40,143 nucleotides of DNA from a bacterium BMS3Bbin13. GTDB lineage: Bacteria; Pseudomonadota; Gammaproteobacteria; 21-64-14. Positions 16,824 through 37,393 of the stretch are shown here, in pieces. The stretch is from contig BDTW01000053.1 in the NCBI GenBank assembly GCA_002897735.1, positions 1 through 40,143 of the forward strand, written 5' to 3'. Made by a program: the position numbers and the translations under genes. Each line of letters starts with the position of its first letter. Position 1 is the stretch's first letter. The notes beneath the pieces are model-generated. The model was not told the origin of the DNA. It made no database searches and worked only from the letters and a program-made list of their open reading frames with translations.

Positions 16824-16954
16824 TCCGCCTTTTCACCGGGGTTCGTTCCGGCGGCCGGCTTGATTCACGTGCCGTTCGGCCTCACGTCCAATGTGCATAT
16901 CGGCGGCCTGCGACGACCGTCCGGCGCCCCGTTTCAGCCGAAGGAACCCGACCC

Positions 16955-17818: not shown

Positions 17819-17878
17819 GACGCCGCCGAGGCGGATCGGCCCGGGAACGACCGCCCGCGGTCCGGCCATCACCCGATT

Positions 17879-19956: not shown

Positions 19957-19986
19957 ATCGCCCCCCCAACCCCGAACGGCGATGCA

Positions 19987-20748: not shown

Positions 20749-22105
20749 GAGAATCCCCCCCTGCAGACGGCTCGACGATCAACGTGAGCCCGTCGCGCCC
20801 GATCACCCGCACGCGCTGGCCCGAGTGCAGCGGGCCGCCGCGCGCGCGCGCCGCCCAGATCTCTCCGTGGACCCGCACGCGCCCCTCGCGCTCGAAGTCC
20901 TCCAGCACCTCGCCGCGCGCGTGGATCAGCCCTTCGTAGCCGCTGACCACCGGGCTGCGCCGCGCCTTCACGATCAGCCCCACGGCGCCGATCAGGAACA
21001 GCGCGCTCGCCACGGCGATGCCGGCGATCAGCGGGTAGGCGACCCTGTAGTCACCCGCCCCGGTATCGAACAACATAACGGAGCCCGCGACGAAGGAGGC
21101 CAGACCGCCGATACCGAGGGTCCCGAAACTCGGCACGAAGGCCTCGGCGACCATGAACACGACACCCAACAGGAGCAGTGCGAGCCCCGCATAGTTGATC
21201 GGCAGCACCTGAAAGGCGTACAGCGCCAACAGCAGCGAGACGGCCCCGGTCACCCCCGGCAACACATAGCCGGGAGTGGCGAACTCGAACAACAGGCCGT
21301 AGATCCCCACCAGCATGAGAATATAGGCCACGTCCGGATGGGTGACCACGCCGAGCAGTCGCGTGCGCCAGCCGGGTCCCCGATACTCCACACGCAGCCC
21401 GCGGGTGTGCAGGGTACGCTGTACCCCCCCGGCCACCCGCACCGTGCGGCCATCGAGACGCCGCAGCAGTTGCGGGACGTCGACCGCCATGAGGTCGATC
21501 ACGTGGTGTTTCAGCGCATCCTCGGCCGGCAGGCTCGCCGCCTCGCGCACGGCGCGCTCCGCCCACTCCGCGTTGCGTCCGCGCAGCTCCGCGAGACTGC
21601 GGATATAGGCCGCGGCGTCGTTGACCATCTTGTGCTTCATGGCGTTGCCGGACCCGCCCCGCGCGGGCGGCGTCCCCTTACCCCCGGCCGGCGCCGACGG
21701 CCCGCCGATGCGCACCGGGGTCGCCGCACCGAGGTTGGTACCCGGCGCCATCGCCGCCACCTGACAGGCATAGAGGAGGTAGGTGCCGGCGCTGGCGGCG
21801 CGCGCGCCGCTCGGCGCCACGTAGGCGACCACCGGGACCGGCGAAGCGAGAATGGCGCGGACGATCCCACGCATGGCGGTATCCAGTCCGCCGGGGGTGT
21901 CCAACTCGAGGATCACCACCGCGGCGTCACGCGTCGCGGCCGCGTGCAAACCGCGGCGCACGTAGTCGCCGGTCGCCGGGCCGATCACCCCCCGCACGTC
22001 CAGCACCAGGACGGAGCGCACCGCGCCCCGGGCATGGGCCGGCAGGAGCAGACCGAACGCGAACGGCAGCAGGCAAAGGACGCGCACAACGGCGATTCTC
22101 CCCAT
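20741..22105 (-). CDS. nfeD: NfeD, membrane-bound ClpP-class serine protease
   Basis: The protein has 454 residues, the long form. A signal peptide (VLCLLPFAFGLLLPAHA) is followed by a ClpP-like domain to about residue 230: ELDTPGGLDTAMRGIV, then APSGARAASAGTYLLYA with the probable nucleophile Ser105, and KHKMVNDAAAYIRSLAE with the probable general base Lys159, by analogy to Ser97 and Lys138 of archaeal PH1510. Four to five transmembrane helices span about 255-385, then an OB-fold NfeD domain (SGYEGLIHARGEVLEDF) closes the protein. A Gly/Pro-rich insert at about 130-153 is longer than in the archaeal protein. It cleaves stomatin-type partners at hydrophobic sites; the partner is the next gene. 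It diverges from the acyl-transfer fusion gene across 57 bases. Confidence 0.94.
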   Translation of the reverse strand: MGRIAVVRVLCLLPFAFGLLLPAHARGAVRSVLVLDVRGVIGPATGDYVRRGLHAAATRDAAVVILELDTPGGLDTAMRGIVRAILASPVPVVAYVAPSGARAASAGTYLLYACQVAAMAPGTNLGAATPVRIGGPSAPAGGKGTPPARGGSGNAMKHKMVNDAAAYIRSLAELRGRNAEWAERAVREAASLPAEDALKHHVIDLMAVDVPQLLRRLDGRTVRVAGGVQRTLHTRGLRVEYRGPGWRTRLLGVVTHPDVAYILMLVGIYGLLFEFATPGYVLPGVTGAVSLLLALYAFQVLPINYAGLALLLLGVVFMVAEAFVPSFGTLGIGGLASFVAGSVMLFDTGAGDYRVAYPLIAGIAVASALFLIGAVGLIVKARRSPVVSGYEGLIHARGEVLEDFEREGRVRVHGEIWAARARGGPLHSGQRVRVIGRDGLTLIVEPSAGGDSHG

Positions 22106-22162
22106 CCCCGCCCGTAAAATAACATAGAATCTCGGCCGTCACCCTACCACCAAGAGGCCCAC

Positions 22163-24961
22163 ATGCCCGGTCCCGACATCACCGATCCCGGCGTATCCCC
22201 GCAGGCCGGAACGGCGCTGCTGGAACTGATCCGCCGGCTGGGCCGGGAACTGCGCCCGGGCGCCCCGGTGCCGGAGCTGTCCCTGGACAGCGCGCTGGAC
22301 GCCGAGGCGGGTATCGACAGTCTCGGGCGCATGGAGCTGTTCGCGCGCCTCGAACGGGTCCTCGGCTGGCGCCTCGACGAGGACCGTGCGATCGCCGCGA
22401 ACACCCCCCGCGAACTGCTTGCCGCGGTCGCGGGGACGAGCCCCCCGGCGGCACCCGCACCCTCCCCGCCACGCATCACCCCCGCGGCACCCGCGCACCG
22501 GATCCCGGCCCACATCGCGACCCTCACCGAGGCCCTCGCCTGGCACGCCGAACATCATCCGGAACGGATCCACCTTCACCTCTATGAGGATGGCGGCGGC
22601 GCAGAGATCTCCTACGGCGCATTGCTGCGCGACGCCGAGGCGCTCGCGGCGGGGCTCGGCGCCCGCGGCCTCTCCCCCGGGCAACCGGTGGCGCTGGTAC
22701 TGCCCACCGGGGCGGACTTCTTCCGCACTTTCCTCGGGATCCTGCTGGCCGGCGGGGTGCCGGTGCCCCTGTATCCGCCGATGCGCATGGCACAGATCGA
22801 GGAACACCTCGACCGACAGGCGGCGATCCTCGCCAATGCCGAGGCGCCGTTCCTGATCACCGTGCCGGAGGGGCTGGGCGCGGCACGGCTGCTGCGCGCG
22901 CGTCTGCCGGCGCTGCGCGCCCTGCTCAGCCCTCGGGATCTGACTGCGGAGGGCGGGCGGCTGCACCAGCGCCGCGCGGCGCACGACCTGGCCCTGATCC
23001 AATACACCTCGGGCAGCACCGGCGACCCCAAGGGCGTGGCCCTGCGCCATGCCAACCTGCTCGCCAACATCCGCGCCATGGGCGAGGCCGTCGACGTGCG
23101 CGGCGACGACGTATTCGTAAGCTGGCTGCCCCTCTACCACGATATGGGGCTGATCGGCGCCTGGCTGGGCAGTCTCTACCACGGCCATCCGCTGGTGGTG
23201 ATGTCCCCGCCGGCGTTCGTGGCCCGGCCGCAACGCTGGCTGCGCGCGCTGCACGAGTATCGCGGGACCCTCTCGGCGGCCCCGAACTTCGCCTATGGGC
23301 TGTGCGCCTCGCGGCTCGCCGACGAGGACCTCGAAGGCCTCGACCTGAGCACCTGGAGGGTGGCCTTCAACGGCGCCGAACCGGTCCATGCACAGACCAT
23401 GGAGCGTTTCATCGCGCGCTTCACCCCGTACGGGTTCCGCCGAAACGCCATGGCGCCGGTCTACGGCCTCGCAGAGTGCTCCGTCGGTCTCGCCTTCCCG
23501 CCCCCGGGGCGCGGCCCGCTCGTCGACCACGTGGCCCGCGACAGCCTGGAGCCGGGCCGGCGGGTGCGTCCGGTCGACGCCGGGGACCCGCACGCGAGCC
23601 ACGTCCCGGCCTGCGGTCGCGCGTTGCCGGGCCACGAACTGCGCATCGTCGACGACGCGGACCGGCCGCTGCCGGAGCGGACCGTCGGGCACATCCAGTT
23701 CCGCGGGCCCTCGGCCACCGACGGCTACTACCGCAATCCGCAGGCGACCGCGGCGCTGTTCCACGACGGCTGGCTCGACACCGGCGACTACGGCTACCTG
23801 GCGGACGGCGAGGTGCGGATCACGGGGCGCGCCAAGGAGTTGATCATCCGCGCCGGGCGCAACCTCTACCCCTACGACCTGGAACGGGCGGTGGCGGAAT
23901 TGCCGGGCGTGCGCCGCAACGGCGTGGCGGTATTCGCAAGCCCCGACCCGGCCACCGGCGAGGAACGTCTCGTGGTCCTCGCCGAGACCCGCGAATGCGA
24001 CCCCGAGGCCCGCGAACGGCTGCGCCGGCGCATCCACGAGCGCACCGTCGCGATCCTGGAGATCCCGCCCGACGACGTGGTGCTCGCCCCGCCGCGCACG
24101 GTGCCCAAGACCTCGAGCGGGAAGATCCGGCGCTCGGCCTGCCGCGAACTCTATGAGCGCGGTGCGCTGACCCGGCGCCGTGCGGTGTGGTGGCAACTCG
24201 CGCGCCTGCGGCTCGCCGGGTGGTTGCCGTCGCTGCGCCGCCTGAGTGCGGCGGGCGGGCGCCTGCTCTATGCGGGCTACGCCTGGACCGCGTTCCTGGT
24301 CATGGCCGGCCTGGTGTTGCTCACCACGCTCGCGCCCCGTGAGTCCTGGCGCATCGGCGGCTCGCGGGCGGTGGCGCGCGCACTGTTGCGCATCATCGGC
24401 ATACGCGTGCACCTGCACCTGCTTGCCCCGATACCGCAGACGGGAGCGCTGATCCTGGTGGCCAACCATTCCAGTTACCTGGACGGGATCGTCCTGTGGG
24501 CCATGCTCCCGACCCGTTACGGGTTTGTCGCGAAACGCGAGTTGCGTCGTTATCCGCCGGTGCGCGGCCTGCTCGAGCGCATCGGCACGCACTTCGTGGA
24601 CCGATTCGACAACCGGCGCAGCGCGCGCGACGCCACCGATCTGACGGCGGCGGCACGTGCCGGTGCCCGTCTGTTGTTCTTTCCCGAGGGGACCTTTGTG
24701 CGCACTGCGGGCCTGCAGCCGTTTCACATGGGGGCCTTCGTGGCCGCGGCCCGGGCGGGGGCGCCGGTAGTGCCGGTGGCGATCCGCGGCACCCGCGCCA
24801 TACTGCGCGGTGACGAGTGGCTCCCGCGACGCGGCGCGGTGGAGATCACCGTCGGGGCGCCGATCCCGCCGCCCGGCACGGACTGGGGCGCGGCACTCGC
24901 GCTGCGCGACGCGGCACGGGCCGAGATTCTGCGCCACTGCGGAGAACCCGACATGCAGTGA
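22163..24961 (+). CDS. ACP - fatty acyl-AMP ligase - acyltransferase fusion
   Basis: The protein has 932 residues. Residues 15-90 are an acyl carrier protein with the phosphopantetheine Ser53 in GIDSLGRMEL. Residues 110-660 are an AMP-forming ligase: YTSGSTGDPKGV (281-292), VSWLPLYHDMGLIG, NGAEPVHAQTMERF and TGDYGYLADGEVRITGRAKE; its YPPMRMAQIEEHLDRQAAIL insert and LAECSVGLAFPP are those of fatty acyl-AMP ligases (FAAL), which load carrier proteins and do not make CoA esters. A hydrophobic helix lies at about 700-730. Residues 740-932 are a PlsC-type acyltransferase with NHSSYLD (His769, Asp774) and FFPEGTF (840-845). The chain could activate a fatty acid, load its own ACP and transfer the chain to a lysolipid or similar acceptor at the membrane. 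E. coli Aas has the opposite domain order and no ACP. AAGAGG precedes the ATG. Confidence 0.92.
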   Translation: MPGPDITDPGVSPQAGTALLELIRRLGRELRPGAPVPELSLDSALDAEAGIDSLGRMELFARLERVLGWRLDEDRAIAANTPRELLAAVAGTSPPAAPAPSPPRITPAAPAHRIPAHIATLTEALAWHAEHHPERIHLHLYEDGGGAEISYGALLRDAEALAAGLGARGLSPGQPVALVLPTGADFFRTFLGILLAGGVPVPLYPPMRMAQIEEHLDRQAAILANAEAPFLITVPEGLGAARLLRARLPALRALLSPRDLTAEGGRLHQRRAAHDLALIQYTSGSTGDPKGVALRHANLLANIRAMGEAVDVRGDDVFVSWLPLYHDMGLIGAWLGSLYHGHPLVVMSPPAFVARPQRWLRALHEYRGTLSAAPNFAYGLCASRLADEDLEGLDLSTWRVAFNGAEPVHAQTMERFIARFTPYGFRRNAMAPVYGLAECSVGLAFPPPGRGPLVDHVARDSLEPGRRVRPVDAGDPHASHVPACGRALPGHELRIVDDADRPLPERTVGHIQFRGPSATDGYYRNPQATAALFHDGWLDTGDYGYLADGEVRITGRAKELIIRAGRNLYPYDLERAVAELPGVRRNGVAVFASPDPATGEERLVVLAETRECDPEARERLRRRIHERTVAILEIPPDDVVLAPPRTVPKTSSGKIRRSACRELYERGALTRRRAVWWQLARLRLAGWLPSLRRLSAAGGRLLYAGYAWTAFLVMAGLVLLTTLAPRESWRIGGSRAVARALLRIIGIRVHLHLLAPIPQTGALILVANHSSYLDGIVLWAMLPTRYGFVAKRELRRYPPVRGLLERIGTHFVDRFDNRRSARDATDLTAAARAGARLLFFPEGTFVRTAGLQPFHMGAFVAAARAGAPVVPVAIRGTRAILRGDEWLPRRGAVEITVGAPIPPPGTDWGAALALRDAARAEILRHCGEPDMQ

Positions 24962-25280
24962 GCGCGGCACGCACGCGACGGCCGGGGGCCGCGCCCTTGA
25001 AAAGGGGACCACGACATACCAATTGCTATGGGAAGACGCCGAACGGGCGTCCCTGTCCACGCGGGAAAGGGACGGGTGGGGGGAATGGCACTTTCTTAAG
25101 GCCCGTATGGAGGGAAACGGCCACGGAACCCACGAACAAAGCCATGCGTTTTCCGTGACTTCCGCGGCTCGACTCAACACCGTTCGGACGGGCTTCGACG
25201 CCCCGGACTCGGGTAGCCCGGATACAGACCGGAATCCGGGGATCGCGCCCCGATGGAGACCGGCTTCAGGACCCGATCGT
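24962..25280. other. Gene-free spacer between the fusion gene and pncB
   Basis: No coding sequence is convincing here. It contains two overlapping potential stems, GACGCC/GGCGTC (from 25035) and CGTCCC/GGGACG (25048-25074), and a REP-like palindrome at 25217. A frame open from 24810 through this stretch into pncB is low-complexity and not conserved-looking. Confidence 0.5.
25217..25240. repeat. REP-like palindrome CCCGGAT / ATCCGGG
   Basis: Arms CCCGGAT (25217-25223) and ATCCGGG (25234-25240), preceded by TAG. The form TAGCCCGGAT followed by GGAATCCGGG is a common dispersed palindrome in GC-rich gamma- and betaproteobacteria. It differs in sequence from the units near 9234 and near 26685. 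Confidence 0.6.
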
Positions 25281-26618
25281 ATGGACTGCACGGCACCCGC
25301 CACCCTGACGGACCTGTACGAACTCACCATGCTCCAGGGCTACCTGGAACAGGGCATGCATGCCCGCGCGGTCTTCGAGTTCTTCGTACGACGGCTGCCG
25401 CCGGAGCGTAATTTTCTGGTGGCCGCCGGCCTGGAACAGGTGCTCGACTACCTGGAGTCCGCGCACTTCACACCGGAGGAGATCGACTGGTTGGCGCGTA
25501 GCGGCCGGTTCAACCGTACATTTCCCGATTATTTGGCCGGGTTCCGGTTCTCGGGCGACGTCCATGCCATGCCCGAGGGCACCGTCTTCTTCGCCGACGA
25601 GCCGATCCTGCGCGTGAGCGCCCCGCTGCCCGAGGCGCAACTGGTCGAGACGCGCATCATCAACCTGCTGCACTTGCAGACGCTGATCGCCTCCAAGGCC
25701 GCGCGCTGCGTACTGGCGGCACCGGACAAGGTGCTCGTCGACTTCGGCCTGCGCCGCGCCCACGGCGCCGAGGCCGGACTCTACGCCGCGCGTGCGAGTT
25801 ACCTGGCCGGGTTCGCGGCGACCTCCACCGTGGCGGCCGGCATCCGCTTTGCCATCCCGGTCTCGGGGACGATGGCACACTCCTTCGTCCAGGCGCACGA
25901 GGACGAGGAAACCGCATTCGAACACTTCGCGCACGCCCAGCCGAACCATGTGGTATTGCTCATCGATACCTACGACACCGAGGCGGCCGCCCGCAAGGTC
26001 GTCACCCTCGCCGCGCGCCTGCGCGGTGAGGGGATCCGGGTACGCGGCGTGCGCCTCGACAGCGGAGACCTCGGCGCGCATGCACGCGCCGTGCGCGCGA
26101 TCCTCGACGCGGGCGGACTGAACGACGTGGAGATCTTCGCCAGCGGCAACCTGGACGAATACGTCCTCGCCCGACTGCTGGGTGAAGGGGCCCCCATCGA
26201 CGGCTTCGGCATCGGCACGCGGGTGGACACTTCGGCGGATGCGCCCTATCTCGACTGCGCCTACAAACTCGAGGAATATGAGGGACGCCCGCGACGCAAG
26301 CGATCCGAAGGCAAGGCGACCTGGCCCGGCCGCAAACAGGTGTTTCGCCGTTACCGCGACGACGGCACGATGGCCGGCGATGTACTGGCCCTGGCCGACG
26401 CCGCGGTGCAGGGTGAGCCGTTGCTCGAACCGTGCATGCACGGCGGGCGGCGGATCCGCGCAACACCGGCGCTCGCGGAGATCCGCCGCCGCACCGCGCA
26501 ACAACTCGCGCGCCTGCCCGCGCCGCTGCGCACGCTGCACCCGGCCGCACCCTATCCGGTGGAAGTCGATCCCGGTCTCAAGGCACTCGTGCGGCGCATG
26601 GACGAGGAGCAAACGTAA
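25281..26618 (+). CDS. pncB: Nicotinate phosphoribosyltransferase
   Basis: The protein has 445 residues from the ATG at 25281; it starts with TLTDLYELTMLQGYLEQGM, the opening of the family. Landmarks are ILRVSAPLPEAQLVETRIINLLHLQTLIASKA (split in the family into the strand and helix of the active site), VDFGLRRAHG, the LIDTYDTEAAARK and VRLDSGDLGAHA segments that hold the phosphoribose-binding loop, and FGIGTRVDTS. It joins nicotinate and PRPP to give nicotinate mononucleotide with ATP hydrolysis, the Preiss-Handler entry to NAD. A second, broken copy of its last 53 codons lies at 30012-30169. Downstream is the repeat-flanked helicase gene. Confidence 0.95.
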   Translation: MDCTAPATLTDLYELTMLQGYLEQGMHARAVFEFFVRRLPPERNFLVAAGLEQVLDYLESAHFTPEEIDWLARSGRFNRTFPDYLAGFRFSGDVHAMPEGTVFFADEPILRVSAPLPEAQLVETRIINLLHLQTLIASKAARCVLAAPDKVLVDFGLRRAHGAEAGLYAARASYLAGFAATSTVAAGIRFAIPVSGTMAHSFVQAHEDEETAFEHFAHAQPNHVVLLIDTYDTEAAARKVVTLAARLRGEGIRVRGVRLDSGDLGAHARAVRAILDAGGLNDVEIFASGNLDEYVLARLLGEGAPIDGFGIGTRVDTSADAPYLDCAYKLEEYEGRPRRKRSEGKATWPGRKQVFRRYRDDGTMAGDVLALADAAVQGEPLLEPCMHGGRRIRATPALAEIRRRTAQQLARLPAPLRTLHPAAPYPVEVDPGLKALVRRMDEEQT

Positions 26619-26684
26619 TCGGCGGGGAAGCAGCCGGTCGCGTGAAATCCCTCGTGACACGAATGGCACCAAGTCGAATCCCTC

Positions 26685-26766
26685 GTGACACCGCTCTGCG
26701 GTGTCACGTCTCCCTTCCGAGCCGCTCCGCGGCGCACAGATAGGTGACACCGCAGAGCGGTGTCAC
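26685..26766. repeat. Left palindrome pair P1-spacer-P2
   Basis: P1 (26685-26707) and P2 (26744-26766) are 23-base perfect palindromes with 10-base arms GTGACACCGC and GCGGTGTCAC; the 3-base centres TCT and AGA make them inverted copies of each other. The 36-base spacer includes GCCGC-TCC-GCGGC. The pair could pair as one long stem or as two hairpins. The same elements recur at 29943-30002 and 30224-30246 on the other side of the helicase gene. Confidence 0.85.
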
Positions 26767-27027
26767 CAGTCACAGTCACCAGTCAGTTCGACGCCGCCTA
26801 CGGCCTAACGCACATAACCTATTGATTCAACGGAAACTGAATCCCAAAACTTGAGTTACTATCTCACCTCGTATGGCGCAAACTTTGGTATTCTTTCATA
26901 GGTAAATGCCCTTCCCTTGGCAGAGATCGGAGATTCACAGGCGACCGCACTATGGTCAAACCCGGGTGAGTCCCCCGGCATAGCCGGGGCATACCTCCAC
27001 CGAGCCGGCGCTAAAACGGATTCCAAA
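26767..27027. other. A+T-rich upstream region of the helicase gene
   Basis: After the P2 palindrome come short repeats of AGTCAC, then from about 26810 to 26910 a clearly A+T-richer stretch than the rest of the window, likely to hold the helicase promoter. I could not fix -35 and -10 boxes. A reading frame continuous with the helicase opens at a TTG at 26917, but these 37 codons do not look coding. Confidence 0.4.
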
Positions 27028-29886
27028 ATGAAACTGCTCGTATACTCCGGTCTCGATACCGATTCGATCCCCGGTTACGCGAAACTCGCGGCCTTTCTCG
27101 AGCGGGGCGACTTCCGCTCCGCCGAGGTCAAGAAGATCAGCGGAAACCTCTACCGCGCTCGGCTCAACCATACCGACCGCTTGCTGTTCTCGATCTACCG
27201 ACATGGGGACGAGCGCTACGCCCTGATCCTCGAGCACGTCCCGCACCACGCGTATGCCCACTCCCGCTTCCTCGCGCACGGTGCGAAGATCGATGGTTCG
27301 AAGATCCCGGTCGCCGATGCGGCCGATGCCGAGACCGCACCACAGCTCGGCTACGTCAATCCCCGCCTCAGTCATTTTCACCTGCTCGACAAGATTCTCT
27401 CCTTCGATGACGCACAGGAGGCGGTCTACCGACAGCCGGAGCCCCTGATCGTCATCGGCTCGGCCGGCAGCGGCAAGACGGCGATCACCCTGGAGAAGAT
27501 GCGCGGAGTCTCCGGCCACCTGCTCTACGTCACCCGCTCGGCGTTCCTCGCGCAGAATGCGCGCGCACTCTATTACGCCCATGGTTATGATCGCGACGAT
27601 CAGGAGATCGACTTTCTATCCTTTCGTGAGTATCTCGAAAGCATCCACGTCCCGCAGGGTCGGGAGATCACGCCGCCGGCCTTCGCCGACTGGCTGGCGC
27701 GCCGACGCCCGTCGCGCGCCGTACGCGACGCGCATCGTCTGTTCGAGGAGTTCCAGGGGGCGATCACGGGCGCCGATGTGACCCGCCCGTACCTTTCGCG
27801 CGAAGAGTACCTCGGGCTCGGTGTGCGCCAGTCGATCTTCCCCGTCGAGGACCGGGCGGTAGTCTATGATCTGTTCGAAAAATACCTGTGTCTTCTCCGC
27901 GACGGGAACTGGTTCGATCCGAACCTCATCAGCCACGAATGGCTCGCCCGGGTCGAGCCGTGTTACGACTTCGTGGTCGTCGACGAGGTCCAGGACCTGA
28001 CCAACGTGCAATTGCGGTTGATCCTCGGGGCCCTGCACGATGCACGCCGTTTCCTGCTGTGTGGTGATGCCAACCAAGTCGTGCACCCGAATTTCTTCTC
28101 CTGGGCCAAGGTCAAAACGCTGTTCTGGCAGGCTCGTGATACAGCGGAGGCGGAAGCGACGGCACCGGCCGATCTCATCCGCATCCTCAACTCCAATTTC
28201 CGAAACTCGCCCCAGGTCACGGAGGTGGCGAACCGGCTGCTTCGCATCAAACAGCTACGCTACGGTTCCGTGGACCGCGAAAGCAACTATTTGGTCACCA
28301 GCCGCGGCCCCACTCGCGGGCGGGCCGTGCTGCTCGAGGGCGGCGAGGCGCTCGAGCGGGACCTCGACGAACGCACCGCTCAGTCGGCGCGCTTCGCGAT
28401 TCTCGTGCTGCACCCCGAACAGAAACCCGAGGTGCGCCGGCGCTTCCACACACCACTGGTCTTCTCGGTGCAGGAGGCCAAGGGCCTGGAATACGAAAAT
28501 GTATTGCTTTACCACTTCGTCTCGACCGAGGCAAAGCGCTTCGCGGAGGTCTCCGGGGAATTGACGGGGGACGATCTTACCGGCGAGTTGCGCTACGCCC
28601 GGGCCAGAGACAAAAGCAACAAGTCGCTCGAGGTGTACAAGTTCTACATCAATTCTCTGTATGTCGCGGTGACCCGCGCGGTGCGCAATCTCTACCTCCT
28701 CGAGTCCCACACCGACCACCCGCTGCTACGGCTGCTCGGTCTCGGGCGCTCGCACGGTGCGGCCGCCGACATTGAAGAACCGCAGCACTCCAGCCTCGAC
28801 GAATGGCGGCGCGAGGCACAGCGCCTTGCCCTGCAGGGCAAGGAGGAACAGGCCGAGGAGATCCGCAATCAGATTCTTCACCAACACGAAGTACCGTGGA
28901 AGGTGCTCGACGAGGAAACGGTCGCCGCGTTGCGCCGGCGAGCCTTGGAGGGCGGCGACAAGGCGGCGTCCATCCAACTCCTCGAATACGCCATCACCTA
29001 TAGGGATCGGGACCTCATAGAGTCGCTGGCACGGGTCGGCGTCGGTGCCGCCCGCCGCCTGGACAAGGCCGCCAAGGTACTGGAAAGCAAGTACCACCAA
29101 GCCTACCGGTACAACAATCCAGTGGCCGTGCTGCGCGAAGTCGATCGCTATGGTCCGGATTTTCGCAACCCCCTGGGCCGGACCCCGTTGATGATCGCAA
29201 GCCTGGTGGGCAACGCCGCGCTGATCGAACGCCTGCTGGAACGCGGTGCCGATCGCTCGCCGGTGGACGCCAACGGACTCGATGCGTACCAGATCGCGTT
29301 GCTTCAAACCTGCACGCAACCGCGCTACGCCCGTACACGACTGGCGGAGGTCCACCGCCTGCTGGCCCCCGACACGCTCGACCTACAGGTGGATGAGCGT
29401 CTGGTCAAGCTCGATCGGCGCAGCATGGAGTATCTCATGCTTAACCTCGCGATGGCGCTGTTCTACGTGCGCCTGCGCGAAAACCTCGAACATGCGGGAC
29501 GTTTCCTCAGCGCCGGGGACTTCGAGCAGGCCCTGGCCCACTTCCCCGAGGAGGTCGTCGCGCAGCGGCGCAAGCGCCGGGCATACATTTCTTCCATCCT
29601 CTCCAAGAACGAGGTCTCGCGTACGGGGCCCTATAATCGCAAACTGTTCCGTCGCATACGCCACGGGCAATACCTGCCGAACCCCGCCCTGTCGTTGCGC
29701 GTGCGCGGGCACTGGGAGCCGATCTACGGGAGGGTGCGCCTCGAGCGACTCGGCGAAGCCGCCGCTTCGCTTCGCGCGCATCTCGCCACTCCGGTGGCGG
29801 CCTCTCCCGGAGCGCGGCCCTCGTCGCACGCGGTGGAACCGCAACCGCCCGATCCGGCCGAGCCGGATCTGCTCCAGGATCTGTAG
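27028..29886 (+). CDS. SF1 (UvrD/Rep-like) helicase with ankyrin-type repeat
   Basis: The protein has 952 residues from the ATG at 27028. Residues 1-95 (KKISGNLYRARLNHTDRLLF, then SIYRHGDERYALILEHVPHH) resemble the small RelE/ParE toxin fold, as an N-terminal module. Helicase motifs follow: Walker A GSAGSGKT 144-151, Walker B VVVDEVQD 316-323, GDANQVVHPN, motif IV NSNFRNSPQV, motif V SVQEAKGLEYENVLL 480-494 and motif VI YVAVTRAVRN 545-554. The segment at about 711-760 has one clear ankyrin-type repeat (GRTPLMIASLVGNAALIERL, then LERGADRSPVDANG). The C-terminal 200 residues are helical and basic with a Pro-rich end. It should be an ATP-driven DNA translocase. No nuclease motif is seen. It stands alone between duplicated repeats and beside Wadjet, so a role in defence is inferred. 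I do not recognise a named family. Confidence 0.85.
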   Translation: MKLLVYSGLDTDSIPGYAKLAAFLERGDFRSAEVKKISGNLYRARLNHTDRLLFSIYRHGDERYALILEHVPHHAYAHSRFLAHGAKIDGSKIPVADAADAETAPQLGYVNPRLSHFHLLDKILSFDDAQEAVYRQPEPLIVIGSAGSGKTAITLEKMRGVSGHLLYVTRSAFLAQNARALYYAHGYDRDDQEIDFLSFREYLESIHVPQGREITPPAFADWLARRRPSRAVRDAHRLFEEFQGAITGADVTRPYLSREEYLGLGVRQSIFPVEDRAVVYDLFEKYLCLLRDGNWFDPNLISHEWLARVEPCYDFVVVDEVQDLTNVQLRLILGALHDARRFLLCGDANQVVHPNFFSWAKVKTLFWQARDTAEAEATAPADLIRILNSNFRNSPQVTEVANRLLRIKQLRYGSVDRESNYLVTSRGPTRGRAVLLEGGEALERDLDERTAQSARFAILVLHPEQKPEVRRRFHTPLVFSVQEAKGLEYENVLLYHFVSTEAKRFAEVSGELTGDDLTGELRYARARDKSNKSLEVYKFYINSLYVAVTRAVRNLYLLESHTDHPLLRLLGLGRSHGAAADIEEPQHSSLDEWRREAQRLALQGKEEQAEEIRNQILHQHEVPWKVLDEETVAALRRRALEGGDKAASIQLLEYAITYRDRDLIESLARVGVGAARRLDKAAKVLESKYHQAYRYNNPVAVLREVDRYGPDFRNPLGRTPLMIASLVGNAALIERLLERGADRSPVDANGLDAYQIALLQTCTQPRYARTRLAEVHRLLAPDTLDLQVDERLVKLDRRSMEYLMLNLAMALFYVRLRENLEHAGRFLSAGDFEQALAHFPEEVVAQRRKRRAYISSILSKNEVSRTGPYNRKLFRRIRHGQYLPNPALSLRVRGHWEPIYGRVRLERLGEAAASLRAHLATPVAASPGARPSSHAVEPQPPDPAEPDLLQDL

Positions 29887-30011: not shown

Positions 30012-30169
30012 GCGCAACGCCGGCGCTCGCGGAGATCCGCCGCCGTACCGCGCAACGACTCGCGCGCCTGCCCGCGCCGCTGCGTGCGATGCACCCGACC
30101 GTACCCTACCCGGTTGGAGATCCCGGTCTCAAGGCACTCGCGCGACGCATGGACGAGACGCAACCGTAA
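30012..30169 (+). pseudogene. Duplicated 3' end of pncB
   Basis: This stretch matches pncB 26458-26618 along its whole length, with about nine in ten bases equal by eye and one 3-base deletion that keeps the frame. Read in the pncB frame it gives ATPALAEIRRRTAQRLARLP through LKALARRMDETQP and ends in TAA at 30167-30169. Homology continues after the stop (AGCCGGTCGC). There is no start and no catalytic part. The two copies are 3,554 bases apart and flank the helicase gene. Confidence 0.85.
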
Positions 30170-30223
30170 TCGCCGGGAAAACAGCCGGTCGCCTGGACCC
30201 TCGGACACCTCACCCTCTCCCTC

Positions 30224-30246
30224 GTGACACCGCTCTGCGGTGTCAC
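30224..30246. repeat. Right copy of palindrome P1
   Basis: An exact copy of the left P1 (26685-26707), again preceded by CCCTC and followed by GTCTCCC. It follows the pncB fragment, as P1 follows pncB on the left. About 50 bases later jetD ends on the other strand. Confidence 0.85.
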
Positions 30247-30295
30247 GTCTCCCCCCTTTCGAGTGCGTTGAAACCGTTCCGGACGGATCCCTTAC

Positions 30296-31498
30296 TTACT
30301 CACCGGTTGACGTATCGGGGACATACGCCTCCTGATCGACAAAACGGGCCGAACGGCGAAGAAACGGCAGCAGCCGGGTGTCCGCAAAACGGCAACCCGT
30401 CCCACCCGCCGGGACCTGTTGTTCGCCCTTGCGCACATCTTCATCGGGCCCGTGTCCTTCCCCCCGTTCCGCGCGGGCGAGAAGCGCCCGATAGCCGGGC
30501 TGCCAAGCCCGGGTGCCGGGGAACACGTCGCGCAATGCGCGCAGGATCTCCATGGCGGAAAAATCGAGATCGCCGAAGAACCATGTCTCCAGCGGGCATG
30601 GGACATCCGTCCAGGCGCGGGCCAAACGTTCGACACCTTCCGGATGGGATGCCAAGGAGGCATGCATCGACACCCCCTCGGGGCTGCGCAGCCGCTTGGC
30701 GGCGCCCATGAAACCCGAGATCCAGACCACGGCCATCCGTTCCGGATCGACACCTGGCAGACGGTTCTTTACCGCGCTGTGGTAGGTGGTCTCGTTTTCG
30801 ATGAGCAGCACGCTCTCCCACGCCGGCCCCGGCACATGTATATTGATCAGTATCGGTTTTTCGGGGAAGGCGTCCGGATCACCGACCAGTCGGGTCAGGG
30901 CCTCGCGGCGCGCATCCAGCAGTTTCGAGATGCCCCAGAATGCCGCGGCGGACGCTTCGCGCAGATACAGGGAAGGATCCAGCTTCGTCAAATCGGCGAG
31001 CCGCTCCACCACCCGGGCGGCCGAACGACCCGCCACCCGGATGGGTTGGTGCCGAAAACCCGACAACCGCGCCTCCGAGAGGGCGAAGCGGCCTTCGAGT
31101 GCCGCCGACCATTGCTCCCGCCACGATCCTTGCCCCGCGGGGCGATCGATCGCCCCGCGGATCACCGCCTCACCTTCCGCGGTCAGGACGATCTGCGGTT
31201 CGGTCTCATAGGGGGGGACATTCGCCGCCCACCGCTTTGGCCCCCTCAACTCGATCCAGCCCCTCTTGGCAACGGCCTCCAGCAATTCCCAGGCGAACTC
31301 CCGATCGGGTGTCTCTGCGCGGTCGAAAAAGACGGGGGTCTTGTCCGGTTTGAGCCGCAGTCGGGGCGGGCGCTCGCGCTGCGCCATGGGCTGGCGGTCC
31401 ACCAGGTCGATCAGCCGGTGCAGCACGTCGGCAATGCCCGGTTCGCCCGCCCAACGCCTCAGCACATCCACCGTATCGTCGTTGTTCCCATCGCCCAC
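30296..31498 (-). CDS. jetD: Wadjet nuclease subunit JetD (divergent)
   Basis: The protein has 400 residues from the GTG at 31496-31498, with GGGAGG about ten bases upstream. Residues 60-200 form the N-terminal winged-helix and linker region. The C-terminal half is the Toprim-fold domain of the DUF2220 type: LLIENETTYHS with Glu234 or Glu236 and FFGDLDFSAMEI with Asp310 and Asp312 as metal ligands, matching the Topo VI-A-like nuclease site of JetD. JetD cuts plasmid DNA that the JetABC motor has sensed as a small closed circle. In the usual Wadjet operon jetD is the fourth gene on the same strand; here it is divergent from jetA across an 87-base shared promoter region. Confidence 0.88.
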   Translation of the reverse strand: MGDGNNDDTVDVLRRWAGEPGIADVLHRLIDLVDRQPMAQRERPPRLRLKPDKTPVFFDRAETPDREFAWELLEAVAKRGWIELRGPKRWAANVPPYETEPQIVLTAEGEAVIRGAIDRPAGQGSWREQWSAALEGRFALSEARLSGFRHQPIRVAGRSAARVVERLADLTKLDPSLYLREASAAAFWGISKLLDARREALTRLVGDPDAFPEKPILINIHVPGPAWESVLLIENETTYHSAVKNRLPGVDPERMAVVWISGFMGAAKRLRSPEGVSMHASLASHPEGVERLARAWTDVPCPLETWFFGDLDFSAMEILRALRDVFPGTRAWQPGYRALLARAERGEGHGPDEDVRKGEQQVPAGGTGCRFADTRLLPFLRRSARFVDQEAYVPDTSTGE

Positions 31499-31585
31499 AG
31501 GCGCGCGCCTCCCGACCCGGCGGAGATTCGGCCGCCAAGCGAAATCAGGTATGCTTTGCCAAGGATATCAGCATCCGGGGTTTCC
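31499..31585. promoter_or_regulatory. Shared promoter region of jetD and jetABC
   Basis: The 87 bases between the divergent GTG starts of jetD and jetA must hold both promoters. On the plus strand TATGCT at about 31550 is a possible -10 box, but no good -35 is visible. G-rich Shine-Dalgarno runs lie before both starts. No operator-like dyad stands out. Confidence 0.4.
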
Positions 31586-33046
31586 GTGGACGCACTGTTC
31601 GACATTATCGATTCCGGTTTCTTCAAGCCACTGACCGGCAAGTACCGCGGGCTGTTCGCCGCCTGCATCACCGCCCTGTTCGAGCGGCTGCACGGCCCCT
31701 ATGCCGACTACCGTGTCAATGTCACCTACGGCGAACTACGGGATCTCTTCCAGCCCCTGGTCGCCGCGAGCCCGAACGACGCCACCGATGGGGACGCCGA
31801 CGAAGAGTTGGACCCGACGGGAAAAGAGTCGGACCGGGTCCGCACCGTAATCTGCCGCCTGACGGAGACCGGCTGGCTTGAGACACGCCTGGACAAAGGC
31901 ACCATGGTTTCGGTCTATGGCCTGACCCAGACCGGAAAGACCTTGGCCGATACCCTTTACCGCCTGCAGGGCGGCGGTATGCGCACTATCCGGCGCAATG
32001 TGCGTTACACCCGCAATTCCCTCGAGGCCTATGTTCGCAGCGAGGGACGGGAACCCTATGAACTGTTGGACGCCTTCGACGCCGCCCAGCGCATCATGTC
32101 GGATCTCAGCGACGACATCGACGCACTGGAATCGCAGCGCCGCAAACTCACCGAAGACGTGGCACGCAGCCAGGGCGAAGGGGTGGCGGAGATCCTGCGC
32201 GAGTTGCGCCTGCGACTTCCGGAGGTAACCCGCAAGTTCACGGTGGAGTCCGTCGTCCAGTACCGCAGTCACATCGAAACCCTGCTGGACGGGATCCTGT
32301 ATTGGCCGCCGGAGCGGCGGGAGAAGGCGGACTCGGCCCTGTTACAGGCCCAGCCGCTGCTGATCCGGGAACTCGCGACGGGCGAAGCCCCCCTGCTGTG
32401 GCTGACCGGCGCCATCCGCGACCGGGTGACCGTCGCCATGGACGTGAAGATGCCGGAGCTGCGCGAGGCGGTCTCCAACTTCGGCCGTCGCATCCAACTC
32501 ATCGTCATGCAACAGTCGGCCCTGGCCACTCAGGGCCGGGATACCGCCGCCCGACTCATTGAGCGGCTAACGGTGCGGTCCCGGGAGGAACAGGACTCTC
32601 TGCTCCACCGGATGGCCGATGCCATGTTTCCCCGGTGGGTGCGACTGCCCGATCCGGGACGGATCCGGGTGGGAGAGCGTGCGGCGCGGCGGCGGCCCAT
32701 CGATACCGGTCTGGCACACCCGCGCCTGACCCGGGAGGAACGCCGCAACGCCTATATCCAACAGATGCTGGAGACCGCTTTTGCACTGACCGAGGCGGAC
32801 ATCGACCGTTATGTCCTGGATCAGATGGGTGCGGCAAGGGCCATGAGCCTGCGCCATTTCAACGTAAAAAAGGCCCTGGATCTGCTGGCGCTGAGCCATA
32901 GCATCGAGATCACGACACACCCCGATTCCGGCGACGAGTGGGACGTCGCCCCCGACTATGACGACACAGGGGAAATACGCCGGTTCGATACCGGCTACGG
33001 CCGCATGCAGGCCTTCACCCTCAGGCGCCGGAGCCGGACGCCATGA
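31586..33046 (+). CDS. jetA: Wadjet kleisin-like subunit JetA
   Basis: The protein has 486 residues from the GTG at 31586, preceded by CCGGGG. It starts with a winged-helix segment (VDALFDIIDSGFFKPLTGKYRGL) of the JetA family formerly called DUF5716, has YGLTQTGKTLADTLYRL, a long helical middle and a C-terminal winged helix (ADIDRYVLDQMGAARAMSLRHFNVKKALDLLAL). By analogy to MukF it bridges the two heads of the JetC dimer and carries JetB. It looks unlike the DUF3375 JetA of type I systems; the subtype is not certain. A much longer upstream frame is the shadow of jetD. The stop overlaps the jetB start as ATGA. Confidence 0.85.
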   Translation: MDALFDIIDSGFFKPLTGKYRGLFAACITALFERLHGPYADYRVNVTYGELRDLFQPLVAASPNDATDGDADEELDPTGKESDRVRTVICRLTETGWLETRLDKGTMVSVYGLTQTGKTLADTLYRLQGGGMRTIRRNVRYTRNSLEAYVRSEGREPYELLDAFDAAQRIMSDLSDDIDALESQRRKLTEDVARSQGEGVAEILRELRLRLPEVTRKFTVESVVQYRSHIETLLDGILYWPPERREKADSALLQAQPLLIRELATGEAPLLWLTGAIRDRVTVAMDVKMPELREAVSNFGRRIQLIVMQQSALATQGRDTAARLIERLTVRSREEQDSLLHRMADAMFPRWVRLPDPGRIRVGERAARRRPIDTGLAHPRLTREERRNAYIQQMLETAFALTEADIDRYVLDQMGAARAMSLRHFNVKKALDLLALSHSIEITTHPDSGDEWDVAPDYDDTGEIRRFDTGYGRMQAFTLRRRSRTP

Positions 33047-33726
33047 GCCGTTTCATCGACACCTTCCACGAAGAACTGGAGCGCACTCCCCTGCACGGCC
33101 TGCGCCCGTTCCAGGCGGTCATCCACCGGTTGCTGGCCCACGGCATCCTTGTCGCGGACGATTCGCAGACCGAGCGCCAACAATACGAGCAGTCGGTTTC
33201 CGCTTTCCCCCTGCTGCGGGACTGGTTCGAGATCGCCGGCCTGCGCCTCGAACACTACCGGGAATTCCGTTATCTGCGCCTGTATCCGCCCAACGCGCGC
33301 ATTCCCGGCGTCCACCAGGACGAGGAGGAGCACAGCGACGCCGCCGTCCTGCGCGAACGCTACAGCCCCATGGAAGCCCGTCTTCTGCTGGTGCTGCGCG
33401 CCCTCTACGATCAAGCGCTCACCCTGGGCAACCTGGGCGACAAGGGCGAGGCCGGCCTGCCCCTGGGGGATGTGTTCACCGCCATGATCACCATGTCGAA
33501 CACCCCCATGCCGGAGGCCGCCGGCGAGCGCGACCGCCTGTTCAAACGCATGAAACGACTCAAGGCCATCGACTACGTTTCCGGCGATGCGCCCGAATCG
33601 GAACGCTGGATCGCCATCCGCCCCATGATCACCACCCTCGTGAGCGGCGACCTGCTGGCCGACGCCATCCGGCGACTGGAAGGCGCGCAGGCGGAAGACC
33701 CGACGGCGGACGACGATGCGCATTGA
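33043..33726 (+). CDS. jetB: Wadjet subunit JetB (DUF4194)
   Basis: The protein has 227 residues. It matches the DUF4194 type of small winged-helix protein: FQAVIHRLLAHGILVADD near the start, RLEHYREFRYLRLYPP with an acidic YSPMEARLLLVLRALYDQAL helix, then LFKRMKRLKAIDYV and the end WIAIRPMITTLVSGDLL. By analogy to MukE it sits on JetA in the SMC complex. Start overlaps jetA by 4 bases and the stop overlaps jetC by 11, so all three are translated together. Confidence 0.88.
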   Translation: MSRFIDTFHEELERTPLHGLRPFQAVIHRLLAHGILVADDSQTERQQYEQSVSAFPLLRDWFEIAGLRLEHYREFRYLRLYPPNARIPGVHQDEEEHSDAAVLRERYSPMEARLLLVLRALYDQALTLGNLGDKGEAGLPLGDVFTAMITMSNTPMPEAAGERDRLFKRMKRLKAIDYVSGDAPESERWIAIRPMITTLVSGDLLADAIRRLEGAQAEDPTADDDAH

Positions 33727-36700
33727 CCGGGTAATCATCATCAACTGGGGCACCCTGCCCAACCGCGAATACGCGATGGGACCGCTGACCCTGTTCACCG
33801 GCGGAAACGGTACCGGCAAGACCACCCTGGCCGATGCGATCCAGACGGTGATGACGGCGGCACGCGACACCTTCTACAAGTTCAACCCCGGCCAGGACGA
33901 GAGTTCTCAGCGCGGCCGCTACGGCAAGGTGCCGCGCACCCTCGCCTCCTATGTGCTCGGCGCCGACCGCAACAAGCTGGCCCGACCCACCAGCGCCCAC
34001 GGCTACGTGGCGCTGGTGTTCCGCACCACGGCGGGCGTCGAGGCCGACGGCGATCCGTTCACCGCCCTGATCGGTGTGTCCGCCGACCTCGGCACCGACG
34101 GCAAGCGGCGGGCACCCCGGACCATCGACCAAGTCAACCTTATCCTGACGGGCGTCGCCCTGAAGCAGGGGGACCTCGTGACGGACGAGGGGGCGGGACG
34201 GCAGGACCGCATCGTTCCCGTCGAGAAGATCGAGAACCATCTGAAGGTACGCTTCGGCTCCAGGGCGGTCCGGGGCTTCCGTGACAAGATCGGCTACCTC
34301 AAGACCCTGTGGGGCTACCTGCGCAACTGCAACGGCATGGCGATCAGCGAACTGGAGGCGGCCCAGGCCACGCGCACCTGGTCGCGGCTGATGGCGCACA
34401 GCCCCATCGGGTCCATCAACGATTTCGTGCGCCACGAAATCCTCGAGCGGCGCGACGTGGCCGGCGATCTGGACCACATGATCCAGTCGGTGCAGACCTT
34501 CAACCAGCTCAAGCAGCAGGCGGCGGAACTCGAAGCCCGGATCGAAACGCTGCGCCGGATCGAACAGTACGGCACGCAGATCGAGCGCGGCTACAGGGCG
34601 CTTGTGGAAAAACGCCTGCTGCTGGCCGAGGTGGAACGGTTCGAACTGGAGCGACGGCGCGAGCAGGCGCAGGAACGGATAGAGACCTTCCGGCAGGAGC
34701 AGCACCGGCTGGGACAGCGGCGCACCATCTTGAAGAGCGAACTGGAACAGGCCGACGACACACGCATCCGCCTGGAAGCCGAACGCGGCGGCCATCCCGT
34801 ACTGATCCAAAAGCGCGATCTGGAGCGGACCCTCGAGGAAAATCGGAACCTGCAAAGAGAGCGGGTCACCGGACTGCTCGTCGCGTTACAGAACCTGCAA
34901 GGGAAACTCGACACCCTGGACCAATTGGCCGTCCTGGCCCCGGAACTGCGCAGCGATACCCAACTCGCCGACGGCGTCGCCGCCATCCGGAGCCGTGCCG
35001 CGCCCCTGTCCGCACTCGACCTCGGCGGCTTCCGGCGGCAGTTGCAGCAAACGATCGCCCGGGAAGAAAGCCTCTACGACCCCGCCCCCTTCGCCGCCTT
35101 CGCCGAACGGGCCGGCGGCGTGCACATCGACGACCTGCTGGCCGAAATCCGTGCGCAGGTGGCCAATCGGGACGGACTCCATGACAAGACCCTGCTGTCA
35201 CGGCAACGACTGGTCGACGAGCACCAACGGCTGTCCGAGGCCCTCACGGAAACCGAAAAACAGCTCGGACGGCTCCGCCGGGGCGAGCAGCCCCTGCCGC
35301 CGGCAACGGCCGCGGCCCTGGAGATCATACGGGAGGAGCAGCCCGGCGCACGGCCCCGCGTCCTGTGCGAACTGGTCGAGATGTCCGCGGGCCGGGAGGA
35401 CTGGCAGCCGGTCATCGAGGCCTACCTGGGCGGAAACCGCTTCGTCATCCTGGTGGAACCCGACTACGAATCCGGCACCACCCGGCTGCTGAAACAGCAG
35501 GGGCTGCACCGCTGCAAAATCGTCCAGGGCGAACATGCCCGCAAGGATGCCGCCCACCGTTCCGTCGAACCCAACACCCTGGTGAACTGCCTCAAGGTGG
35601 ACGACCCCACCGCCCTGGCCTATCTGCTGGGCAACTACGGAAACGTCAAACTGACCGGCGACATGGAGACCCTGCGCTGGACGCCCCGCGGCATCATGAA
35701 AGAGGGCTTCGCATCCGGCGGCTACACCCAGTTCCCCTGCCTGGCGCGCAGGGATGACATGGTATTCGGACACAAGGCCCGGGAATACCGGATCGAAAGC
35801 CTGCTGCAGAAAAAGCAGGAAACAGAGAAGGAACTGGCGCAAATCGACGAGCGGTTGGGCGCTCTCGGCAGGTTGTCGGACTGCCTGCAAACCCTGAAGA
35901 CCGATACCGTCCTGGAAGAGACGGCCATCACGCTCTACGACAATGCGGAACAGATGGCGCGGATCAGGGAACAGATCGCCGGGCTGGACCTGCGCGGTGC
36001 GGAGCCCCTGGAACAACGTTACCAAGCCGCACGGGTACAGATCGAACGTTTGAAAAAAGAACAGGAAGCCGCGATCCATCGTGAAGGTGAAATCGCAAAG
36101 GAGCTTCAATACCTCCACGAACAACTGGAACAATGTACGGGGGAACTGACGGCCGCCGGGAAGCGGCTGGAGACCGCCCGCGAGCGGGTTCGCGGGCTTT
36201 CCCGCCCCGACAAGGACTACGACGCGGACGACATCGTCGCCAAGATCGCCGCCCGGGCCCGCGGCGGCACCCATGAGGCGGAATCGCTGACGGCGCAAAT
36301 CGAACAGGAAGAACGGCAATTCAACGGCTACTGGCCGAACTACCGCGCCCTGATTCGGGAATACAACGGACAGGGCCACGCCCGCGACGAATCCGTCACC
36401 CTGCCTCTCCAGGCGCTCGAGGTGAACACCCTGAGGGGCAACGACGACTTCTTCCTGTTCATGTCAATCCAGCATGGGGTCCGCGCACGCCTCCACGTTC
36501 TCGAATCCTCCATCCTGATCGCCATCAGCGAACAGCTCGAGGGCATCAAGCAGGAGATCGACAAGGCGGTCACCAACGATTTCGTCAACTTGGTGATGGA
36601 CAACATTCGCAAGGGGGAACAGCAGATCCGCGACCTCAACCAGACCCTGAAACAACACCGGTTCGGCGACGAGGAGTTCGAATTCGTTGCGCATCCGCGG

Positions 36701-37393
36701 GAAGGCATCCACGGAAACTACCGGCGATTCTTCAAATCCGTCGCCGACAAATCGCTGCTCCACCAGGAGGCCTTCTCCATCTTCGACGACAATCAGTTCG
36801 ACGCCCGGGACATCCGCACCCGCGACGAGATCATGGACAAGCTGTTCCAGGGGGGAGACGCCCGGGTGCGGGAGGAACTTCTGCGCATGGCCGACTACCG
36901 GGAATATTTCGACTTCGACATCTACCGGGTGCACGAGGGCGAGCGCATCTCTCTGGCCGAGGACGCCACCGGCAGCGGCGGACAACTGGAAACCGCCGCC
37001 TACGCCATCCGCTCCGCCTCGGTCATCAACGCCTTCAAGCTGGGCGACCGCCGCAGCCCCCGGCATTGCCGCTTCCTGCTCTTCGACGAGACCTTCGCCA
37101 AGACCGACGAACAGCGCTCGGTGGAGATCCTCAAGCTGCTCACCCGATCACTGAAGCTGCAGATCCTTTTTGTCGTGCCCTCCCGCGCCGCCGGCGTCTT
37201 CAAGCCCGTCCTCACCGATCAGCACGTCTTTACCAAGTTCAACTCCGTCAATGCGCCGGGTGAGCTGAGCACCGTGGTGGAGGTGAAGTCGGAAACGCTG
37301 GACAGGGAGAAAGTGGCCCGGCTCTGGGAACAGCGAAAAGAAGAGGTCATGATTCAGGCAGGACTTGAATTCGACGCCATGGAGGACGAGTAG
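33716..37393 (+). CDS. jetC: Wadjet SMC-like ATPase JetC
   Basis: The protein has 1225 residues. Walker A is GGNGTGKT at 29-36. From about 230 to 520 and 690 to 950 it is coiled coil with a hinge-like globular part between (VLCELVEMSAGREDWQPVIEAYLGG). The C-terminal head has the ABC signature GSGGQ at 1086-1090 and Walker B LLFDETFAK with Asp1124 and Glu1125. MukB-like SMC subunits of this kind (COG4913) form the DNA-extruding motor of Wadjet: two JetABC dimers pull DNA loops and detect plasmids small enough to be pulled tight, which JetD then cleaves. The gene is intact, ends 54 bases before the convergent GH130 gene and has the same GC-rich codon use as its neighbours. Confidence 0.92.
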   Translation: MRIDRVIIINWGTLPNREYAMGPLTLFTGGNGTGKTTLADAIQTVMTAARDTFYKFNPGQDESSQRGRYGKVPRTLASYVLGADRNKLARPTSAHGYVALVFRTTAGVEADGDPFTALIGVSADLGTDGKRRAPRTIDQVNLILTGVALKQGDLVTDEGAGRQDRIVPVEKIENHLKVRFGSRAVRGFRDKIGYLKTLWGYLRNCNGMAISELEAAQATRTWSRLMAHSPIGSINDFVRHEILERRDVAGDLDHMIQSVQTFNQLKQQAAELEARIETLRRIEQYGTQIERGYRALVEKRLLLAEVERFELERRREQAQERIETFRQEQHRLGQRRTILKSELEQADDTRIRLEAERGGHPVLIQKRDLERTLEENRNLQRERVTGLLVALQNLQGKLDTLDQLAVLAPELRSDTQLADGVAAIRSRAAPLSALDLGGFRRQLQQTIAREESLYDPAPFAAFAERAGGVHIDDLLAEIRAQVANRDGLHDKTLLSRQRLVDEHQRLSEALTETEKQLGRLRRGEQPLPPATAAALEIIREEQPGARPRVLCELVEMSAGREDWQPVIEAYLGGNRFVILVEPDYESGTTRLLKQQGLHRCKIVQGEHARKDAAHRSVEPNTLVNCLKVDDPTALAYLLGNYGNVKLTGDMETLRWTPRGIMKEGFASGGYTQFPCLARRDDMVFGHKAREYRIESLLQKKQETEKELAQIDERLGALGRLSDCLQTLKTDTVLEETAITLYDNAEQMARIREQIAGLDLRGAEPLEQRYQAARVQIERLKKEQEAAIHREGEIAKELQYLHEQLEQCTGELTAAGKRLETARERVRGLSRPDKDYDADDIVAKIAARARGGTHEAESLTAQIEQEERQFNGYWPNYRALIREYNGQGHARDESVTLPLQALEVNTLRGNDDFFLFMSIQHGVRARLHVLESSILIAISEQLEGIKQEIDKAVTNDFVNLVMDNIRKGEQQIRDLNQTLKQHRFGDEEFEFVAHPREGIHGNYRRFFKSVADKSLLHQEAFSIFDDNQFDARDIRTRDEIMDKLFQGGDARVREELLRMADYREYFDFDIYRVHEGERISLAEDATGSGGQLETAAYAIRSASVINAFKLGDRRSPRHCRFLLFDETFAKTDEQRSVEILKLLTRSLKLQILFVVPSRAAGVFKPVLTDQHVFTKFNSVNAPGELSTVVEVKSETLDREKVARLWEQRKEEVMIQAGLEFDAMEDE

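Follow-up and report, generated by a model that had tools for sequence, protein, structure and literature searches.

A helicase-ankyrin protein with an N-terminal RelE-type fold beside a Wadjet locus as a candidate single-gene defence system

As summarized in Table 1, the window analysed herein, namely the whole 40,143-nt stretch of contig BDTW01000053.1 from the bacterium BMS3Bbin13, contains a gene for a single protein chain that joins a RelE-type fold, an SF1 helicase core, an ankyrin segment and a putative winged-helix-like domain, and this gene is flanked by duplicated sequence and followed by a type I Wadjet system. Comparison with about 80 full-length relatives revealed that they share its ATG start and have nearly the same length, and the limits of the reading frame and the 952-residue length given in the initial annotation were thus correct; the starts of the relatives coincided with the ATG at 27028, and the in-frame TTG upstream of it (26917) did not align. 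The A+T-rich region noted earlier upstream of the start proved to be the stretch of highest A+T content when 80-nt stretches were sampled every 5 nt along the window, and no match to the sigma-70 consensus was found in 26600-27100. Overall, the helicase-ankyrin gene is real, well conserved, uncharacterised and mobile.

Table 1. Coordinates of the helicase-ankyrin gene, its domains and its surroundings in the window.
Feature	Position	Strand	Basis
Left copy, NAPRTase 3' end and REP-like palindrome	26458..26714		Sequence comparison
A+T-rich stretch, putative promoter	26821..26900	+	GC 0.375
Single-chain RelE-fold/SF1 helicase/ankyrin/winged-helix-like protein, 952 aa	27028..29886	+	ORF; relatives share start and length
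RelE/YoeB/HigB-fold domain, residues 1-81	27028..27270	+	AlphaFold2 model, Foldseek, VIA, conservation
SF1 (UvrD-like) helicase core with intact motifs I-VI, residues ca. 125-565	27400..28722	+	Pfam, motif conservation
Helical linker plus ankyrin segment (Ank_3 717-742), residues ca. 590-758	28795..29301	+	Pfam; PDB ankyrin/DARPin sequence matches
C-terminal domain, tentatively winged-helix-like, about residues 768-915	29329..29772	+	AlphaFold2 pLDDT 89.5; VIA
Right diverged copy (85%), NAPRTase 3' end and REP-like palindrome	30012..30253		Sequence comparison
JetD, type I Wadjet	30296..31498	-	PADLOC JetD1 7e-86
JetA, type I Wadjet, start approximate	31592..33046	+	PADLOC JetA1 1.4e-77
JetB, type I Wadjet	33043..33726	+	PADLOC JetB1 5e-52
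JetC, type I Wadjet	33716..37393	+	PADLOC JetC1 1e-272

The duplicated repeats that had been reported on both sides of the gene were identified as a 257-bp duplication, 85% identical, that comprises the 3' end of NAPRTase and the palindrome following it. The NAPRTase blocks themselves (26458-26644 and 30012-30195) were about 88-90% identical, and the arrangement looks as after integration or recombination at the end of that gene. Synteny between the window and a congener extended from 16711 to 26607, at the NAPRTase 3' end, and then stopped; the helicase gene and Wadjet both lie past this point, and the helicase gene of the congener is located on another contig, without NAPRTase. As a further, diverged NAPRTase 3' end separates the helicase gene from Wadjet, the locus suggests stepwise acquisition at the NAPRTase site. 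The 23-nt palindrome GTGACACCGCNNNGCGGTGTCAC occurs in the window at 26685, 26744, 29980 and 30224 and has 34 copies in the genome (G000), often paired at distances of tens to a few hundred bases, as against none in the reversed control. It belongs to a genome-wide REP-like family, a spread that the initial annotation had not described.

All four Jet proteins matched the PADLOC type I models, in agreement with the Wadjet neighbour recognised at the outset, and they constitute a complete JetABCD set at 30296-37393, in which JetD is encoded on the strand opposite to JetABC. The possibility that the helicase gene is itself a Wadjet component was rejected, because JetABCD is complete without it, JetD is on the opposite strand and the duplication separates JetD from the helicase gene. 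No Jet homologues were found at the loci of the relatives, and the linkage to Wadjet was seen only in the window.

The N-terminal 118 residues gave no match in Pfam and none in a PDB profile search despite their strong conservation, and Pfam searches with 53 members of the N-terminal and 55 of the C-terminal alignment yielded chance-level matches, one of them a weak match to ParE_like (0.044). On the family alignment, residues 1-80 were modelled confidently by AlphaFold2 (pLDDT 91.9). With this model, Foldseek returned YoeB/ParE toxins first (probability 1.00, best E 2.6e-3), YafQ and HigB also being among the leading matches, and VIA-align gave Z scores of 7.5 to YoeB over 73 residues, 7.4 to an archaeal RelE and 6.2 to Cami1; the best 50 VIA-align matches listed comprised RelE, YoeB, HigB, YafQ, ParE and others with the same fold. 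The beta-alpha(-alpha)-beta3 topology of the model is that by which the RelE/ParE superfamily is recognised at the level of fold, and at this level the model confirmed that residues 1-80 belong to it. The RelE/ParE-like N-terminus of the initial annotation, which had been made to depend on a RelE-type fold within residues 1-95, was thus borne out as regards the fold.

Across the 82 aligned rows, K36, R51, E69, H74, Y76, S79 and F81 were identical throughout, R43 was Arg in 80, and position 45 was Arg or Lys in all 82. The residue sets for RNase activity are K52/K54/R61/R81/Y87 in RelE and E46/R65/H83/Y84 in YoeB. With hhalign, residues 42-56 of the N-terminal profile were placed on residues 56-70 of E. 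coli YoeB in an alignment that is not significant and gives the register only; it puts R45 on R59, and R51 on R65, a catalytic residue of YoeB. The likewise non-significant register with RelE puts YRARL on YKIKL, i.e., R43/R45 on K52/K54, and all these equivalences denote sequence register and not superposed coordinates. In each of six distant relatives (about 23-29% identity), R51 is retained, as is a motif of the form H-x-Y or H-x-x-Y; R45 is present in most of them, and R43 is lost. Judging from these residues, the N-terminal domain would more likely be a catalytic RNase than a ParE-like non-catalytic module.

In the helicase core, Pfam detected UvrD-helicase (3.8e-9), AAA_19 and UvrD_C_2. 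The motifs by which SF1 UvrD-like helicases are recognised, namely I (GSAGSGKT, residue 144), II (DEVQD, 319), III (GDxNQ, 346), V (AKGLEYEN, 484) and VI (VAxTRA, 546), were nearly invariant in the 82 rows, with key positions 95-100% invariant, and the helicase motifs initially read from the sequence were therefore upheld; since they are essentially invariant, the motor is probably active. A single-sequence search found no PDB relative of the core at E 0.01, and the PADLOC GajB models gave merely partial matches around the motif blocks (best E 6e-12), so that the core is, by sequence, a divergent SF1 enzyme. Apart from these partial GajB-type matches, no named PADLOC defence system has this domain set, which the initial annotation did not know as a named one either. 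Identity with Gabija was rejected, as the neighbours in the window are NAPRTase and Wadjet, with no GajA, and the GajB match is not full-length.

The ankyrin-type repeat was verified by an Ank_3 match above the Pfam cut-off. The C-terminal 148 residues gave no Pfam match and no PDB profile match, though they are strongly conserved, and their AlphaFold2 model consists of helices followed by a strand hairpin. In VIA, its top matches were the winged helices of IdeR and MntR (Z about 6), and Foldseek found nothing significant in PDB and BFVD; given this Z score, the predicted topology and the Foldseek outcome, the domain, which is absent from the domain list of the initial annotation, is only tentatively termed winged-helix-like. 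At one locus, a full-length gene is followed at a distance of 2 kb by a separate C-terminal fragment (L022:14795-15485; residues 745-909 at 58% identity), probably a decayed second copy.

A contig scan of species-level genomes revealed at least 583 relatives among at least 595 matching stretches. The taxonomic description rests on 80 of these relatives, which come from Chromatiaceae, Methylococcaceae, Thiotrichaceae, Nitrosomonas, Zetaproteobacteria, Endozoicomonas and further groups; Deinococcota and Thermodesulfobacteriota are represented by one member each. Within Gammaproteobacteria the gene is sporadic: of 369 sampled genomes, 18 matched at 1e-10 and 14 (about 4%) held family members, among which were broken copies, one in two pieces (G535) and two fragments (G533 and G486). 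Within 299 phylum-level genomes, neither end domain was found outside open frames of the full architecture. One genome (G042) encodes three large paralogues (L145:3949-8562, L146 and L147), in which long ankyrin arrays or repeats of other kinds come after a RelE-like N-terminus and an SF1 helicase; in their domain make-up these are a sister architecture with exchanged C-termini.

The gene was present in 111 of 5,426 E. coli genomes, at 102 chromosomal and 10 plasmid places; its sites there are phage-derived islands and large plasmids. In E. coli, it follows Gp2-like, AlpA-like and phage-derived genes and has Rpn and IS genes at the borders, and some copies are annotated as frameshifted. Relatives were carried by 139 plasmid records, including those of Shigella and Piscirickettsia; the gene surroundings described come from E. 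coli and other records. Carriage by phages was rejected: the phage records contained no match to the family, and the single match in IMG/VR (L131, IMGVR_UViG_2558860275_000002), which resembles the E. coli copies and stands on a contig filed as viral, is not clearly phage-borne because it is flanked by a Mu-like transposase/repressor region on one side and by a YfjI/Gp2 island on the other. In a quick tree with long branches, of which the broad split alone was used, the window protein grouped with Chromatiaceae and Achromatium (support 100), and the protein of the congener (L025, the same sequence as L083) fell into another clade, with a Desulfovibrionales sequence and near a Trueperaceae one. 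As the tree conflicts with taxonomy and the congener has a different version elsewhere, this comparison of sequences shows horizontal transfer of the gene, between phyla included, and its mobility is further supported by island and plasmid carriage and by its sporadic presence.

To survey the neighbourhood, PADLOC was applied at a strict threshold (1e-10) to 347 predicted neighbours within 6.5 kb of 34 orthologues, which are longest-ORF calls and some surely spurious. In this uncontrolled count, few defence matches were obtained: one type I-F Cas set, one CBASS-type cyclase, E1-E2 genes and single HEC-06, PDC-S01 and AriA-like matches, besides generic ATPases, kinases and SNF2 helicases. Pfam on one batch of neighbours returned mainly housekeeping families. 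No neighbour or partner gene was conserved across the family at the loci examined, in line with the single-gene organisation that had been proposed. At three loci (L026, L030 and L035), an SNF2 helicase gene and a gene for a SWIM-type protein lie directly downstream on the same strand, operon-like; as they occur in one lineage only, this pair was rejected as a fixed partner. An antitoxin gene was neither recognised in the window by Pfam or PADLOC nor conserved at the loci of the relatives, and a type II toxin-antitoxin module, which has its antitoxin adjacent, was rejected. Since no neighbour is conserved across the family, the protein should act alone, with any antitoxin function residing in the same chain.

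It is plausible that the helicase-ankyrin protein serves in defence. Our favoured reading, to which we give a probability of about 45%, is that it is a stand-alone, horizontally transferred abortive-infection protein in which a RelE-type RNase is set free by the motor, ankyrin and winged-helix part. We infer the gating, the trigger, the RNase activity and the protective effect as follows. At rest, the chain would hold the RelE domain inactive in cis, replacing a separate antitoxin; control would have to be in cis because no neighbour is conserved. Should the motor and the winged helix engage foreign or abnormal nucleic acid, or the ankyrin segment an invader protein, ATP binding or hydrolysis would drive a conformational change that frees the RelE domain, which could then cut mRNA, probably on the ribosome, and stop the growth of the infected cell. 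The anatomy suits such a gated effector, since a RelE-type domain is combined with a nucleic-acid motor and an ankyrin/winged-helix-like recognition part, and Cami1, a RelE fold fused to a sensor, and GajB, a proposed DNA-end sensor, may be regarded as precedents by analogy. In its favour stand, as established by computation, the RelE/YoeB fold, the invariance of R51/H74/Y76 and of the motor, the joint occurrence of the end domains, the lack of a partner, the sporadic and decayed copies, the conflict in the tree, the carriage on plasmids and islands and, in the window, the adjacency to Wadjet. Counting against this reading, the neighbours elsewhere are mainly housekeeping genes, with a handful of defence genes at the 34 loci; the RelE match is model-based, at the Foldseek E value given above, the residue equivalence is one of sequence register, R43 is lost in distant relatives, and the fold also includes ParE-type proteins, which are not RNases. 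We would only tentatively go further and regard the protein as the first SF1-helicase-gated RelE ribonuclease, a one-protein immunity in which motor, ankyrin and winged helix replace the antitoxin and mRNA is cleaved on detection of an invader.

ParE members share the RelE fold and inhibit gyrase without catalytic residues (PMC11980606), and the N-terminal domain might likewise be a nucleic-acid-, gyrase- or ribosome-docking module for a specialised SF1 motor, which would act directly on foreign replication or transcription, by clearing or blocking it, without any toxin step. The motor is indeed the best conserved part, and the winged-helix-like domain at the C-terminus might bring it onto DNA. 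While the fold ranking, with YoeB and RelE first, cannot choose between docking and RNase activity, the R/R/H/Y residues are invariant or nearly so, and distant relatives retain most of them, which exceeds the needs of plain docking; we therefore consider this alternative unlikely, yet deserving of attention. A general helicase for DNA/RNA repair or stress, uninvolved in defence, would account for the UvrD-like core, for the neighbours conserved among close relatives and for the mainly housekeeping contexts, but is improbable in view of the toxin fold at the N-terminus, the sporadic and partly decayed occurrence, the transfer between phyla and the carriage on islands or plasmids.

The chances are likewise small for a single-chain module that stabilises islands and plasmids or causes addiction to them, in which the rest of the chain would be a built-in antitoxin: the carriage and the RelE-type fold fit, whereas a toxin and an antitoxin in one chain would not decay at different rates after loss, many copies lie on chromosomes in housekeeping contexts, and the invariant motor would have no explanation. 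That the protein is a host-directed effector of pathogens and symbionts, as the ankyrin segment, the Shigella and Piscirickettsia plasmid matches and the ankyrin-rich distant relatives in one gammaproteobacterial genome might hint, appears very improbable, since most members are found in free-living phototrophs, methanotrophs, nitrifiers and iron oxidisers, and the motor and toxin fold point to intrabacterial targets.

If the abortive-infection reading is correct, a widespread single-gene system would be added to bacterial immunity, together with an example of a RelE-type toxin restrained without an antitoxin. A protein of islands and large plasmids annotated merely as 'ankyrin repeat' or 'UvrD-helicase domain-containing' would moreover acquire a function, and family libraries would gain two unnamed domains, the divergent RelE fold and the C-terminal winged-helix-like one. 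The family, hitherto unnamed, extends over hundreds of species and about 2% of complete E. coli genomes, and the defence reading is directly testable since intact copies exist in E. coli.

Among known systems, the RelE/YoeB/HigB type II toxins share with the window protein the fold of residues 1-80 and a set of basic and His/Tyr residues; unlike these toxins, which stand alone at 80-100 aa, it is fused to an SF1 motor, has no antitoxin gene and bears no Pfam-level similarity to them. Cami1, a CRISPR-associated CARF-RelE mRNA interferase, likewise unites a RelE-fold effector and a sensor in one defence protein, but its sensor is CARF and its RelE part C-terminal, whereas the window protein has helicase, ankyrin and winged helix in that place and the RelE fold at the N-terminus. 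The G042 relatives agree in the RelE-like N-terminus and the SF1 core (about 23-29% identity) and differ in their C-termini of long ankyrin or other repeats, where the family profile finds no winged-helix-like domain. A 2025 survey of mono- and multidomain RelE/ParE toxins mentions no helicase, UvrD or ankyrin in its main text, and left out many multidomain proteins because no antitoxin was identified or members were too few (PMC11980606). A paper on hotspots in P4-like satellites mentions neither ankyrin nor UvrD, and a literature search that covered few subscription journals, and is thus weak as to absence, yielded no paper with this domain set. Gabija GajB, a proposed sensor of DNA ends (PMC10681800), resembles the window protein in the SF1 core and in the partial profile matches, while the latter has no GajA partner and carries additional RelE-fold, ankyrin and winged-helix-like domains. 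Multidomain RelE-fold toxins and SF1-helicase defence proteins are the known kinds of which the window protein, which belongs to no named system, would be a variant.
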